64,000 bases of DNA, from the NCBI RefSeq assembly GCF_021513195.1, contig NZ_CP090974.1, positions 570,001 through 634,000 on the forward strand, read 5' to 3'. Position 1 is the stretch's first letter. Each line of letters starts with the position of its first letter. The stretch is from Shewanella sp. OMA3-2 (GTDB taxonomy: Bacteria > Pseudomonadota > Gammaproteobacteria > Enterobacterales > Shewanellaceae). A program made the position numbers and the translations under genes. The notes under the pieces are model-generated. The model worked only from the letters and a program-made list of their open reading frames with translations, was not told where the DNA came from and did not search any database. Of this stretch, positions 31,158-36,566 are shown piece after piece.

Positions 31158-32685
31158 TTAACTATCATCACATAAACTTTTGCCCGCGGCATAGCAACTA
31201 GGCTGTCTTGGGCACACTGCGCCGCGTGAGCAAATCAAGCGGGCGTCGTTTTTAATGCCGCGTTCAATCCAATTAATGTTAAGAATTTTAGCCACACTGA
31301 TCAGATCTTGTTTGATGTGCCGTGGGATCACCACAGAGCCACCATTGGAGGCACACGCTTGTTTCAAGTCATTAGCAATCGACAATGAATCTTTACCTTG
31401 GGCATCAATAGCTGGATTCAAATCAATACCGGCACACAACACATGTGGATTGCCAGCTGAGTCTTCAACCTTGATAGATTCACAGCAATATATTCGAGGT
31501 TGATTACCGACATTAAGAATCGAAATTTGCGCTGAAGTACCAGATGAAGGCTCATTAATCATTCTGAACACCGCCCAGTGCTGACAAGGATCCTCAACTA
31601 AACGCATATTGCCCCACGGCAGCGGAATACCATTACCGCGATATACCGCTTTTAATTTGCCAGGCGCATAAGCATCAAAGAAATGCCAATGTGGATAAGG
31701 TGACACTACCGTCATACGGCGCATGGCGACCGATGCAGAAACCTGTAATTGCTTGTGCACACTAATTTCATAACCGTGACGGTCAAGTAATTGCCTAAAG
31801 GGAACCTTAGGACATAATAATGCGCCGGCAAAAAAGCTTGATTCAAAATCACGCCAGGCATGTAAAATATCTTGGGCGTTTAGGGTGTTTGATTGTGGAA
31901 TGCCGTTGTCATCACCTTCTTCTTTTCGCCCTGATGTCATGACTGACTTTAAACCATCTTTATTGTGTAATACACAATGACCAATATGCACAGCTAAATC
32001 ATATTTCAAACGATGAGGGCGATTTTTTAAAGTGTTGTTGAGGTAAATTGTGCGGGAGGCTCAAAAAAAGAGGTCACTAATTGACGTGAGCTGGCCCCCA
32101 TTTCATCACGAATTTCTTGCGGTGTGCGGTCAATCCACTTAATCACTAGCCCCATTCTGGCGGCAATGGTCAGCATGTCATCGGCCATTAATGGCATGCG
32201 TTTTAAACCAACATCTTCAGCGGCACGCTCTAAATCAGGAAAATGGTTTTGGTGATGTTCTTGGTGCGCGCGGATCAACAAGTGGGCAAATTGTCTGCCC
32301 GATGTCCGGTTTGCGACAGCATTTCGGGTATCGCGATTTGTAAAATATCATTAGAGAATAAAAAGCTTGGCTCTAGCGGCATACCACTAATGCCACCTTT
32401 ATTACCTTTTTCAGGCGTAATGGCGTGATCTTCTGGCACATCATCAAGAAACCAGCCCGCTTCTTTTTGAAAAACCACCGCAATAACCGCTAACATATCG
32501 GCACTTGGTACACGCTTACCACGTTCAATCATAGATAAATATGACACAGAAGGTGAGTTGTTAGCGTCCACCCGCATGCAGCGGGCAGATAAATCTTCCA
32601 TGGTTAAGTTATTGCGTTTACGCAAATTTCTTATCTTTGTGCCCAAAAAGTGGGTCTTTCGCATCAAGCTTTTATCATTTCTCAT
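31158..32685 (-). CDS. XRE-family regulator, DUF3612/ScfR-like (two frameshifts, reconstructed)
   Basis: Three adjoining frames form one protein: helix-turn-helix part from 32685, middle part to about 32046, and C-terminal part to 31158. One missing base near 32305-32308 and one near 32045-32049 (plus strand) break it; repair gives 509 residues. The XRE helix-turn-helix is near residues 15-70. The rest resembles the DUF3612 / short-chain acyl-CoA regulator (ScfR/RamB) group, which controls acetate and glyoxylate-cycle genes in several bacteria. The C-terminus has a Cys cluster (about eight Cys in the last 100 residues). It is divergent from a malate synthase G-like domain gene, which fits such a role. 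Confidence 0.8.
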
Positions 32686-32694
32686 TTTGTATAA

Positions 32695-32721
32695 TTCACA
32701 CTGTAAAATTTTTATTGTGAA
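32695..32721. promoter_or_regulatory. Inverted repeat between XRE regulator and malate synthase-like gene
   Basis: TTCACA-N15-TGTGAA with an AAAATTTT centre, in the divergent promoter region directly before the regulator start. It could be the regulator's operator; no second copy was found to support it. Confidence 0.3.
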
Positions 32722-32842
32722 ATTCTTTGTAAAAATAGCATAGACTAAAAATCAAGCTGTGAACAAGGCTTAAATTAAAAACTACTTTGAATCATTATAA
32801 ATAAAATAATGTGACCTACGATTAAAAGAAGAGGATAAGGCT

Positions 32843-33361
32843 ATGAACATGTCTACTCAAGCAAGCAAAACATCTACCCAAAACCTTAACCACTTCATTG
32901 GTGAGCAATTTGTGGCAACCACTAACCCATTGGACCGTTCTATTAATGCGAAAGAATTTTTAGACGCTCAATTTCCATTAGCGACAGGTTCACACCAAGA
33001 TGTGACTAGCTATGTGGTTTACTACACTCATTTGCTTGCATTTTTAAAAGATGGCACACAATGTGGCTTATTAAATCCCTGCCAGTTCGTTGCGCTAACG
33101 GGTCATAAAAGCGAGCCAACGTCAGTGGTATTAAAAAATAACGACACTCATATTGAAATTTGTTTTGACCGCCAAGGCGATATTGGTACAGATGATTTAG
33201 CACACATTGAAGATATTCAAATTGAAATGCCTATTAAGAATTTACCTACACCTTACAAACAGTGGATCAGCTTATTACACGCAAGCTGCAAGCCTACCGA
33301 AGGCCGTTGTAAAGTGTTTACCGCTAAAGATGGCAGTGATTACGCTATGCACCTGCGTTAA
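32843..33361 (+). CDS. Free-standing malate synthase G alpha/beta-domain homologue
   Basis: 172 residues; start has AGGATAAGG upstream. Residues 39-127 align by eye with the inserted alpha/beta domain of malate synthase G (GlcB). Matches are Phe-Leu-Asp then Pro-Leu-x-x-Gly-Ser-x-Gln-Asp-Val; Gln-Phe-Val; Leu-Lys-Asn-Asn-x-x-His-Ile-Glu; and Ile-Gly-x-Asp-Asp-x-Ala-His-Ile-x-Asp. Residues 158-172 (Phe-Thr-Ala-Lys-Asp-Gly-Ser, ending His-Leu-Arg) match the second half of the same domain. The catalytic barrel segment that lies between them in GlcB, and the rest of the enzyme, are absent, so it cannot be a malate synthase by itself. It is divergent from the XRE regulator. Role unknown. Confidence 0.75.
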   Translation: MNMSTQASKTSTQNLNHFIGEQFVATTNPLDRSINAKEFLDAQFPLATGSHQDVTSYVVYYTHLLAFLKDGTQCGLLNPCQFVALTGHKSEPTSVVLKNNDTHIEICFDRQGDIGTDDLAHIEDIQIEMPIKNLPTPYKQWISLLHASCKPTEGRCKVFTAKDGSDYAMHLR

Positions 33362-34918
33362 ACGTGTAGCTAACATTAGCGGATTAAGAAAAGCATTTTT
33401 GAAAGCCAGCGGGATAAAACCGCTGGCTTTTTCATTACTTGCTTGAGTTGCTTGGCCAAAAAAATTAGAGTGTTGGCTGACTCTGTTTGATGGAGTTGTT
33501 TGGTCGGCGATATAAAAGTTGATGGTTTGTTTACTCATCGATGTTGTGTTTTCTGACAGCTTACAGCGTAAAGTCACCGGATATTCAATTTGCTCACCTG
33601 GTTGAATATGGACTTTATTGTCGGTGATAAGGGTGAGAACGCAACCCTGATACAGGCTATCGACACCAATAATATAATCGACAGCTTGTTGGGTTTTATT
33701 ACGAATTTTGAGCTGATAGCTATTTTCGACAAACTCTCCAACTTCGCGATAGAGACTTTGGCGGTCTCGGATGACATTAAGTTGAATTAAGCTGCGATTG
33801 GCTAAGTCTACGATCATTAATGCGCACATAATGATCAACGCCAATGCGTATCCTAGCGCTTTTAACGATAGCTTTTTAGCTGGAATACTGGTTTTTGGGT
33901 TTGTATGGCTTTGAGCTATTTGACTTTGGGGAGCCAGAAGCGGTGGCGTTGGCTTTAGGGCATTCTCGCTGGTAAAACTGATTAAATTCGGTAAATAGCC
34001 AAATTTTTCCATCGTTTGATTACATGCATCGACGCAGGCGCCACAGTTGATACATTCGTATTGTAAACCATTGCGAATATCTATGCCTGTTGGGCAAACA
34101 TCGACACATAAATTACAGTCAACACAATCACCTAAATCGGTATTTTGCGAGCGTTTTCGTGGCCCTCTTGATTCGCCTCGGGCAGCATCATAGCTGACGG
34201 TTTTGGTATTTGAGTCAAACATAACGGCTTGAAAGCGCGAGTATGGGCAACAATGTAAACACATCATTTCGCGCATCCAACCGGCATTGATATATGTACA
34301 AAGTGCAAAAAACCATACCCAAACGCCAGTCCAAAAACCGCTAGATAAAGTGAAAATATCGATATATAACGTTCTGGCGGGCATAAAGTAACCCATAAAA
34401 CCACAACCAGTCACTAATGCGGTAAGGGCCCACAAACTGTGCTTGGTAACACGTTTACGGATTTTTGATACAGATAATGGCGCTTTATCTAATGCGGCAC
34501 GGTGATGGTGATTTCCTTCAACTTTAGCCTCTATCCACATAAACATAGCGGTCCAAGCGGTTTGAGGGCATAGAAACCCACACCATACTCTGCCCCAATA
34601 AACGGTCACAAAAAACAACGCAAATGCCGCCGCCATAAACATCCAGGCTAGAATGGTAAAGTCTTGTGGCCATAAGGTGATATTAAAAAAGAAGAACTGT
34701 TGCTGGGTTACATCAAGTAAAATAGCCTGCCGGCCTTGATAGCTTATAAAGGGTAATAAAAAGAAAACGGCTATCAGTAAAGTATTACTGTATTTTCTGA
34801 TCCGCTGATATACACCGTATTGTTCACGCACATGAATTTTGCCTGAGGGAGGGGAGCTGACATTCACAATCGGGATGCGTTGGGATGAAGTTAATCGACT
34901 TAATTCTGATGCTGACAT
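33275..34918 (-). CDS. ccoG: Cytochrome c oxidase accessory protein CcoG (RdxA/FixG)
   Basis: A membrane iron-sulfur protein needed for copper delivery and assembly of cbb3-type oxidase. It has several membrane segments, then two 4Fe-4S motifs (Cys-x2-Cys-x2-Cys-x3-Cys-Pro around Asp-Cys-Val-Asp-Cys-Asn-Leu-Cys, and Cys-Ile-Asn-Cys-Gly-Ala-Cys). A further membrane segment and an Ig-like periplasmic end follow. As written it has 547 residues and reads through a terminator into the neighbouring gene. One extra base in the seven-A run at plus 33458-33464 would end it at a TAA (33437-33435) just before the terminator, at 494 residues. I think 33435 is the true end. A sigma-54 promoter lies upstream; ccoNOPQ are not in the window. 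Confidence 0.9.
   Translation of the reverse strand: MSASELSRLTSSQRIPIVNVSSPPSGKIHVREQYGVYQRIRKYSNTLLIAVFFLLPFISYQGRQAILLDVTQQQFFFFNITLWPQDFTILAWMFMAAAFALFFVTVYWGRVWCGFLCPQTAWTAMFMWIEAKVEGNHHHRAALDKAPLSVSKIRKRVTKHSLWALTALVTGCGFMGYFMPARTLYIDIFTLSSGFWTGVWVWFFALCTYINAGWMREMMCLHCCPYSRFQAVMFDSNTKTVSYDAARGESRGPRKRSQNTDLGDCVDCNLCVDVCPTGIDIRNGLQYECINCGACVDACNQTMEKFGYLPNLISFTSENALKPTPPLLAPQSQIAQSHTNPKTSIPAKKLSLKALGYALALIIMCALMIVDLANRSLIQLNVIRDRQSLYREVGEFVENSYQLKIRNKTQQAVDYIIGVDSLYQGCVLTLITDNKVHIQPGEQIEYPVTLRCKLSENTTSMSKQTINFYIADQTTPSNRVSQHSNFFGQATQASNEKASGFIPLAFKNAFLNPLMLATRLTQVHSVITAIFSGKHFTTAFGRLAACV
33402..33432. terminator. Bidirectional terminator
   Basis: AAAGCCAGCGG/CCGCTGGCTTT, an 11-bp perfect stem with a seven-base loop and T-rich exit on both strands. 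It separates the malate synthase-like gene from ccoG. The ccoG frame as written runs through it. Confidence 0.85.
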
Positions 34919-35125: not shown

Positions 35126-36566
35126 CTAACGCTCAATACCCAGTTTTTTCATCCGCGAACGCAATGTGCTTGGCGGTAATGCCAGCATCGCCGCCGCGCC
35201 ATTTGGGCCTGATATCCGCCATTGAGTCAATTCTAATGTGTCGATAATATGCGCAGTTTCGGCTTCTACCATGGTCATGGGCTGCTTAATGTGGGGGTTG
35301 CTTCCTTTGAGTGTCGGCAGTACCAGACTATCAAAGGTTAGCGTGTTGTCGTGGGTTATAATGATTTCTCTTTCAATTAAATTTTGCAGTTCACGTACAT
35401 TTCCGCCAAGGATATTGTTGTAATTTGTGTAAGCCTTTTGCGCTCACTTTAGTTATTTTTTTTCCGAGTTTTTGACTGAGTGATGCGACCAAATCACTCA
35501 CCAAGTTAGGTAAATCTTCTTGTCGATCGCGCAGAGGAGGAACTTGAATAGGGAAAACATTAAGGCGGTAAAATAAGTCCATCCTAAATAACCCTTGCTC
35601 TACACGGGTAGGTAAATCATGGTGAGTTGCCGCAATAAGGCGAATATTAACTTTAATGGTTTCGCTGCTACCAACACGCTCAAAAGATTGCTCTTGAATA
35701 ACACGTAATAGCTTTGACTGTGCTTCAAGACTGAGTTCAGCTATTTCATCTAGAAATAGCGTGCCGTTATGGGCTAATTCAAAGCGGCCTTTACGTCGAC
35801 TAATTGCCCCTGTAAATGCGCCTTTTTCATGGCCGAATAACTCACTTTCTAAAATGGATGCCGAAAACGCAGCGCAATTGACGCTCACCATGGGGTGGTT
35901 TTTTCGGTGGCTTAATTGGTGCAGGCTTCGCGCGACTAATTCTTTTCCTGTGCCATTTTCACCGCAAATTAATACCGTGCTATCGGTATTGGCAACAAGA
36001 TTAATTTGTTGGGTTAAATGGTTTATCGCTTTACTGTTGCCAGACAAACCCATAGCCCCTTGCTTACCTTGCAGTTCGGTGAGTAAGTATTGATTCTCTG
36101 AGGTTAATCGCTCTGATAGTGCCTGTACTTGTGCCAGGGCATTACGTAATGAATCTTCGGTGTGTTTTTGAATGCTCACATCTCGAAATATGGCGATAAC
36201 ACCAATTAGAATATTGTTATCATAAACCAGGGTTGAACTATAATAAACAGGGAAATAACTGCCATCTTTACGCCAGAACACATCATCACTGACTTGGCGG
36301 GCAATACCGTCATGCAGAGTACGATATATAGGACAATCTTGGTGAGGATAAGGGCTGCCATCGGCATGACTATGATGGTGACAATTATGGATGTTTTTGC
36401 CGATTAACTCTTCACTATGCCACCCCGTCATGAGTTCTGCCGCAGGGTTAATGAAAACGGCATTACCCTGAAGATCAAAGCCATATACCCCTTCCGTCAT
36501 CGCATTGAGCAGTAACGTATTCTTAGGTAAAAAATGGCTGGTGGCTAGGCTAGTTTTTTCGGTCAT
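35126..36566 (-). CDS. PAS-domain sigma-54-dependent activator (frameshifted, reconstructed)
   Basis: A PAS domain (about 15-130) carries an unusual Cys62-His-His-His-Ser-His67 ... Cys78 cluster. A coiled linker follows, then an AAA+ domain with Gly-Glu-Asn-Gly-Thr-Gly-Lys-Glu, an intact GAFTGA loop and Phe-Leu-Asp-Glu-Ile-Ala. The frame breaks near plus 35400-35405 at Tyr-Pro-Trp-Arg. Adding two bases (or removing one) continues with Gly-Asn-Val-Arg-Glu-Leu and a Fis-type helix-turn-helix ending at TAG 35128-35126, for 480 residues. There is no receiver domain, so it senses its signal directly. Shared inverted repeats suggest it controls ccoG and yeiH. Confidence 0.88.

Follow-up and report, generated by a model that had tools for sequence, protein, structure and literature searches.

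We found that the window analysed here, a stretch of 64,000 nucleotides from Shewanella sp. OMA3-2, encodes a free-standing insertion domain of malate synthase G (MSG), hereafter called MSGi, opposite a regulator of the DUF3612 family. Comparisons across genomes leave, in our judgement, little doubt that MSGi descends from an MSG encoded beside such a regulator and that it is linked to the DUF3612 regulator. Since, in related bacteria, MSGi lies beside one regulator and carries the likely DNA switch of that regulator, its role is probably that of a partner in regulation and not of an enzyme.

The open reading frame of MSGi spans exactly positions 32843-33361 of the forward strand and its product has 172 amino acids. 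Residues 34-99 match the Pfam model MSG_insertion (PF20658) with 70.4 bits (cut-off 24.8), the one match to this model in the genome, and residues 1-170 match the NCBIfam model NF006511 (PRK08951, "malate synthase") with 217 bits against a cut-off of 173, which places the protein in that family. Hence, the standalone protein family is already in NCBIfam and the protein itself is not new. Both MSG equivalog models fall far below their own cut-offs on MSGi, TIGR01345 (malate synthase G) reaching 71 bits where 989 are needed. In the solved MSG chains (1d8c, 1p7t) positions 171-267 correspond to MSGi residues 37-133 (E about 1e-18), and all matches to solved chains lie between residues 35 and 134. 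We also aligned 66 standalone rows with full-length MSGs, in an alignment that still contained three unlinked rows in the wrong frame (C_L122, C_L125, C_L128). In a regulator-linked MSG taken as reference (L069), the segments 161-270, 285-307 and 316-333, as well as most of the first 30 residues, are represented in at least half of these rows. As far as alignments can tell, the standalone form is made of the protein start and the fused halves of the insertion domain, with the intervening and catalytic parts absent. The reading of the initial annotation, a free-standing MSG insertion domain with its halves joined and the barrel gone, is thus borne out by both family models and by the alignment. 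MSG (GlcB; TIGR01345) is the source of the domain, and its regulator-linked members have 13 diagnostic insert positions in common with the standalone form. Unlike MSG, MSGi has neither the malate synthase TIM barrel nor the C-terminal domain. The catalytic residues of the E. coli enzyme, given as Asp631 and Arg338 in the excerpted text of PMC3832036, lie outside the part kept in MSGi. A search for MSGi homologues at E<=1e-3 returned 76, so the frame is no product of chance, and the relatives retrieved with names come mostly from Shewanella. The names given to relatives include malate synthase, hypothetical protein and, for certain UniRef entries, one that refers to a Malate synthase G alpha-beta insertion.

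The association with the regulator turned out to be nearly invariant. A scan of species genomes, in which we considered the best 80 of 125 loci, placed the regulator divergently next to the MSG-derived gene at 79 of these 80; at the last one (L053) the domain gene lies at the end of a contig. In ten of the 80, nine from Marinomonas and one from Alteromonadaceae M269, the slot is occupied by a full-size MSG followed by isocitrate lyase, and in the other 70 by the standalone domain, with isocitrate lyase not nearby. Among 394 genomes of the order of the window, 95 have DUF3612 above the cut-off (one more has a weak match), and next to every one of these 95 genes, at most 4 kb away, an MSG-derived gene is encoded divergently. 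The neighbouring frame is shorter than 260 amino acids at 66 loci, has 700 or more at 25, and 346-453 at four. Ninety-three of the 95 loci, all except the window and G077, were tabulated from retrieved sequence, giving 65 standalone genes (157-221 amino acids), three intermediates (334-403) and 25 full-size genes, one of which (L111) is split in frame. Isocitrate lyase follows 21 of the 25 full-size genes, none of the three intermediates and none of the 65 standalone genes, one of which has under 1700 bases of downstream sequence; at L069 both MSG and isocitrate lyase exceed the enzyme cut-offs. The survey of genomic neighbourhoods that the initial annotation had proposed therefore shows a link between MSGi and the regulator that is real and stronger than had been guessed (95/95 loci). 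At four loci of family f20 (L114, L178, L187, L188) a full-size MSG stands by the regulator and the retrieved flank lacks isocitrate lyase, which is perhaps a first step in the break-up of the operon.

Further standalone copies number at least 18 among the matches listed, 17 elsewhere in the genome and one as a tandem second copy. Copy counts in the 394 genomes refer to the matches listed, and weak standalone copies may be missing from them. All 18 occur in genomes carrying the regulator gene, and no regulator was found within the stretches retrieved around the 17 non-tandem ones. Since 16 of them belong to family f21 (Vibrio, judging by names) and two to one other genus, they stand for few events, probably few duplications. 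In the tandem arrangement (L104, 7708-9242) two MSGi genes follow each other, with three boxes of the kind described below before each. In one f21 genome (L101, 1672-7574) the extra MSGi, also with three boxes, comes directly after a full MSG, and a LysR-like gene and isocitrate lyase lie on the other side of this pair.

The boxes form an element of 37 bp (32688-32724) located between the two start codons, beside that of the regulator, and composed of three direct repeats with the consensus TGTAAAATT-N5-TGTAAAATT-N5-TGTGAAATT, which we regard as a putative operator. The spacing pattern located the three boxes in 88 of 94 intergenic stretches; they were seen in the remaining six, and in G077 too, on a rescan of the whole locus, the six having been missed at first owing to start-codon calls that truncated the intergenic stretch. 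With a matrix of 46 positions, the three boxes are found at 95 of 95 regulator loci with scores of 47.5 or more out of 63.7. Since 88 of these loci served to build the matrix, only seven are out of sample, and the other tests count more. All 18 further standalone copies have the element 50-120 bp upstream. It was found at none of the 28 unlinked MSG loci of the class, none of which has the regulator (best score -22.4), and in none of four unlinked malate synthase or isocitrate lyase stretches from genomes that carry MSGi or one of the intermediates (best score -23.6). Hence, every standalone copy examined carries the boxes of the regulator. From position and co-occurrence we infer that the DUF3612 regulator binds the three-box element. 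A consensus promoter scan of the stretch between MSGi and the regulator found none. Downstream of MSGi, a terminator-like hairpin (33401-33431, forward strand; -21.7 kcal/mol, z -5.86), absent from the listing of the consensus scan, suggests that MSGi is a single-gene unit.

The regulator facing MSGi is an XRE protein, as the initial annotation had it, although in this assembly it is spread over three frames of the reverse strand (31158-32685), reaching residue 509 of an intact relative. The N-terminal piece with the helix-turn-helix (HTH) occupies 32305-32685 and corresponds to residues 1-127 of that relative, the middle piece (32030-32305) lies in a second frame and corresponds to residues 128-220, and the C-terminal piece (31158-32069), in a third frame, starts from about residue 207 and holds the IrrE-like end and DUF3612. 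Together the pieces comprise HTH_3 and a C-terminal DUF3612 (PF12268) that scores 359 bits, enough for membership, and this is the only DUF3612 copy in the genome. Intact relatives have about 509 amino acids in one frame, with the HTH, a weak IrrE-like match and DUF3612; in Shewanella sp. ANA-3 (L024), for example, the MSGi gene and the regulator gene are both uninterrupted. Four other proteins from L005 and four from L007 each align with the window in a single frame. The pieces are 92-96% identical to the regulator of L004, despite a dS of about 1.0 between the MSGi genes of the two loci, so that inactivation, if real, would be recent. The broken frame may reflect either such a recent inactivation or an assembly error.

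The further claim that this regulator is of the ScfR/RamB type did not hold. The C-terminal domain is DUF3612, and PF09856, the C-terminal domain of ScfR, has no match in the genome of the window, nor in four intact DUF3612 regulators at E<=10. When a DUF3612 regulator was compared with one ScfR protein using hhalign, the alignment was restricted to the HTH. The four intact regulators consist of HTH_3, then Peptidase_M78 (a weak match, E 0.00013 to 0.36, in one of the four just over the cut-off), then DUF3612, and DUF3612 regulators end in conserved cysteines. By sequence, they do not appear to be members of ScfR.

The history of the locus can be followed through forms that lie between the enzyme and the domain. 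For INTERMEDIATES and origin, the relevant loci are L108-L110, all of one genus, where the MSG lacks part of the N-terminal region and everything beyond the first part of the barrel. Their mean identity to regulator-linked MSG is 45% in the insert, 37% in the N-terminal stretch and 24% in the barrel stretch, and they are half-degraded enzymes in which the insertion domain is best kept. In a tree of 105 regulators, those of L108-L110 are sister to the regulator of the full-MSG locus of M269 (99% SH-aLRT), and the three gene states require at least five changes by a quick method. In a tree of 140 insert columns, which still held the three wrong rows as an isolated long branch, the intermediates group together (99/94) and the standalone label requires four changes. 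The reduction of MSG to the standalone domain was probably not a single event. At thirteen positions of the insert, 66 standalone proteins agree with 32 regulator-linked MSGs (65% or more in each set), whereas the frequency is below 25% in the 25 unlinked MSGs left after C_L122, C_L125 and C_L128 were dropped for their wrong reading frames.

The sequences themselves show the descent, the linkage, the common boxes, purifying selection on the protein, the half-degraded forms and, in this genome, a near-exact box pair upstream of aceBA; we bring these together as follows. MSGi is the retained insertion domain of an MSG that was once encoded, usually with isocitrate lyase, opposite a DUF3612 regulator and beside three boxes. 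The domain, the protein start, the boxes and the regulator stayed together as a pair while MSG catalysis was lost. The regulator would bind the boxes and control both itself and MSGi. With less certainty, MSGi would be its feedback partner, a small protein that binds the regulator and tunes its DNA binding, perhaps jointly with some small metabolite from the acetyl-CoA/glyoxylate branch; in species that keep a full-length MSG at the regulator locus, the whole enzyme may play the same part. The feedback step is suggested by the strict pairing, by the insert positions specific to regulator-linked MSG and by the box-carrying copies. For the whole of this explanation, from descent through control by the boxes to feedback, we see the chances as evenly balanced. 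Against it, the regulator is frame-broken in the very genome of the window, and the counts are not independent, the further copies coming mostly from f21; the aceB site is strong in few Shewanella genomes (see below), and malate synthase and isocitrate lyase widely occur in the same genomes as MSGi, which leaves room for a role of MSGi on these enzymes. One might speculate further, and more tentatively, that the ancestral MSG was a trigger enzyme whose insert reported the activity of the shunt to the DUF3612 regulator, that the insert was freed more than once as a co-regulator where the enzyme was redundant, and that the pair captured aceBA in the clade of the window; such a scenario is possible, but we would not yet lean towards it.

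Could MSGi instead act on the enzymes of the shunt? Acting in trans on malate synthase or isocitrate lyase, it might inhibit them or serve as a regulatory subunit, with the DUF3612 regulator only setting its level. MSGi did arise inside a malate synthase, one Vibrio copy directly follows a full MSG, and both enzymes are present in all of the 58 standalone genomes examined (of 66; eight f21 genomes were left out). Yet, the malate synthase is not always of one type. Most of these genomes have malate synthase A (MSA), but in four (G128, G379, G244, G302), and in the three intermediate genomes, the only malate synthase among the matches listed is of MSG size and is encoded at a distance from the regulator. 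The enzymes are also found in the other genomes of the survey (malate synthase in 11/12, isocitrate lyase in 12/12), and isocitrate lyase occurs in 80 of 80 surveyed genomes among the matches listed. Both being nearly universal with and without MSGi, their presence discriminates little and was dropped as a clue to its partner. What accompanies MSGi throughout is the DUF3612 regulator, and we find a role as subunit or inhibitor of the shunt enzymes rather unlikely. A narrower possibility named by the initial annotation, that the excised domain binds the full enzyme, is not supported as it was put, because the genome of the window has MSA and no MSG, and the domain is kept both with MSA and in some genomes for which only an MSG-size enzyme is listed. 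MSGi could also be an independent effector, binding a ligand or acting otherwise, which is a target gene of the DUF3612 regulator and never contacts it. That further copies in Vibrio and in a second genus lie away from the regulator and yet have boxes is what one would expect of ordinary members of a regulon. But no other target is equally constant, and among MSGs the signature of the insert is peculiar to those linked to the regulator, so we hold this for unlikely, if worth keeping in mind.

Two other readings were weighed. MSGi might be a decaying remnant, inactive as a protein and kept only for the DNA of the divergent promoter, and the clear loss of catalytic parts through intermediate stages would fit with this. 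However, selection on the protein is purifying: among 13 close Shewanella MSGi sequences, the 67 usable pairs of 78 (those with dS under 2) have a median dN/dS of 0.057 and a maximum of 0.114. MSGi is also conserved across genera, with invariant residues, and has duplicates away from the regulator, so that decay seems very improbable. Because of purifying selection, MSGi very likely has its own function, in line with what the initial annotation had derived from the precise excision of the domain. Alternatively, a sequencing error might conceal a full malate synthase G, a hidden frame that the annotation itself had named as the finding that would overturn it. The neighbouring regulator is indeed frame-broken in this assembly. 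Yet, the MSG model run over the genome matches only the MSGi frame and AceB, and there is no barrel near MSGi in any frame. For the MS_TIM-barrel the genome yields a single match, this same MSA-type AceB, located at 3.37 Mb of C1 (MSGi is at 0.60 Mb), which matches TIGR01344 with 806 bits and is adjoined by AceA. Since the gene is also standalone at 65 of the 93 tabulated loci of the order, we consider an error of this kind practically negligible.

Control of aceBA by the same regulator is likely only in the clade of the window. Allowing up to three mismatches, the two-box pattern has 18 matches in this genome and the reversed control pattern has 12. With at most two mismatches there are three, two overlapping at the MSGi locus and one upstream of aceB. 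The latter is a near-exact box pair (one mismatch) 366 bp upstream of aceB, the only other place in the genome with at most one mismatch. The matrix of 46 positions found nothing when run on aceBA, and the site scores 3.1 of 63.7 on the three-box matrix, i.e. two of its boxes are good and the third is poor. When 40 Shewanella genomes were searched, the matches listed included an exact box pair outside the regulator locus in three (G000, G223, G071), each time 366-371 bp upstream of aceB; the best 30 pattern loci are all beside the regulator. In the 30 aceB upstream regions obtained from these 40 genomes, three sites are strong (26-40 of 39.9), one (L278) is weak (11) and the others are at noise level, and the idea of a genus-wide control of aceBA was dropped, a strong site being present in only 3 of 30. 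The same regions (L277-L306) contain several conserved blocks, e.g. GTAATTNAATTACGTAAT and TTGGTNNNACCAATT, the second of which resembles what we take to be a PdhR site, and other regulators probably act there.

Our searches of the literature listed no paper on DUF3612 and none on a free-standing MSG domain; PMC1630690 contains the terms but deals with other matters. The genomic context of the standalone domain, i.e. its linkage to the regulator, was likewise not found in the literature searched. The model NF006511 describes the same protein family as MSGi, but its name implies an enzyme, of which MSGi lacks the barrel, and the model line does not mention a regulator or an operator. The nearest working analogue that we found is RamB of Paracoccus denitrificans, an ScfR protein that, in the excerpted text of PMC10370305, recognises a motif of repeated boxes in front of the gene for malate synthase and also binds CoA esters; that motif has two boxes with an 18-bp spacer, whereas the MSGi locus has three boxes with a period of 14 bp. 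PrpR of Mycobacterium tuberculosis has HTH, IrrE-like and C-terminal domains and binds CoA and an iron-sulfur cluster through a C-X2-C-X4-C motif, as given in the excerpt of PMC6765138. The conserved cysteines at the end of the DUF3612 regulators, noted above, offer a point of comparison. The ScfR regulators RamB (Paracoccus; M. tuberculosis) and PrpR resemble DUF3612 regulators in being HTH regulators, and act on acetate and propionate pathways. The order of domains may be parallel, the IrrE-like match being weak, and DUF3612 stands in place of the ScfR C-terminal domain; the protein partner that we propose for the DUF3612 regulator would be a further difference from RamB and PrpR.

Trigger enzymes that signal to regulators include glutamine synthetase with GlnR and TnrA, and CysK with CymR. 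In the case proposed here, the regulator of an operon would likewise receive its signal from a metabolic enzyme (or a part of it) which that operon encodes, except that only one non-catalytic domain would remain and that the interaction is a proposal. A family often labelled malate synthase, probably misannotated as such in Shewanella, Vibrio and their relatives, gains a testable non-enzymatic role, and the DUF3612 regulators gain a predicted target sequence. The locus also provides a natural experiment on the purpose of the MSG insertion domain, which was kept, probably more than once, when the enzyme was discarded; the path can be seen in the half-degraded forms that occupy this locus in some genomes.

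Two neighbouring genes of the window deserve mention. A CcoG/FixG-like frame of 547 amino acids (33275-34918, reverse strand) overlaps the 3' end of MSGi; its homologues in L009 and L013 have 508-509 amino acids and end before MSGi, so that the end of this frame looks altered in the window. A sigma-54-type regulator (35391-36566, reverse strand), with 391 amino acids, is about 90 residues shorter than its homologues in L013 and L009 (483-487 amino acids), which is possibly another frame break.
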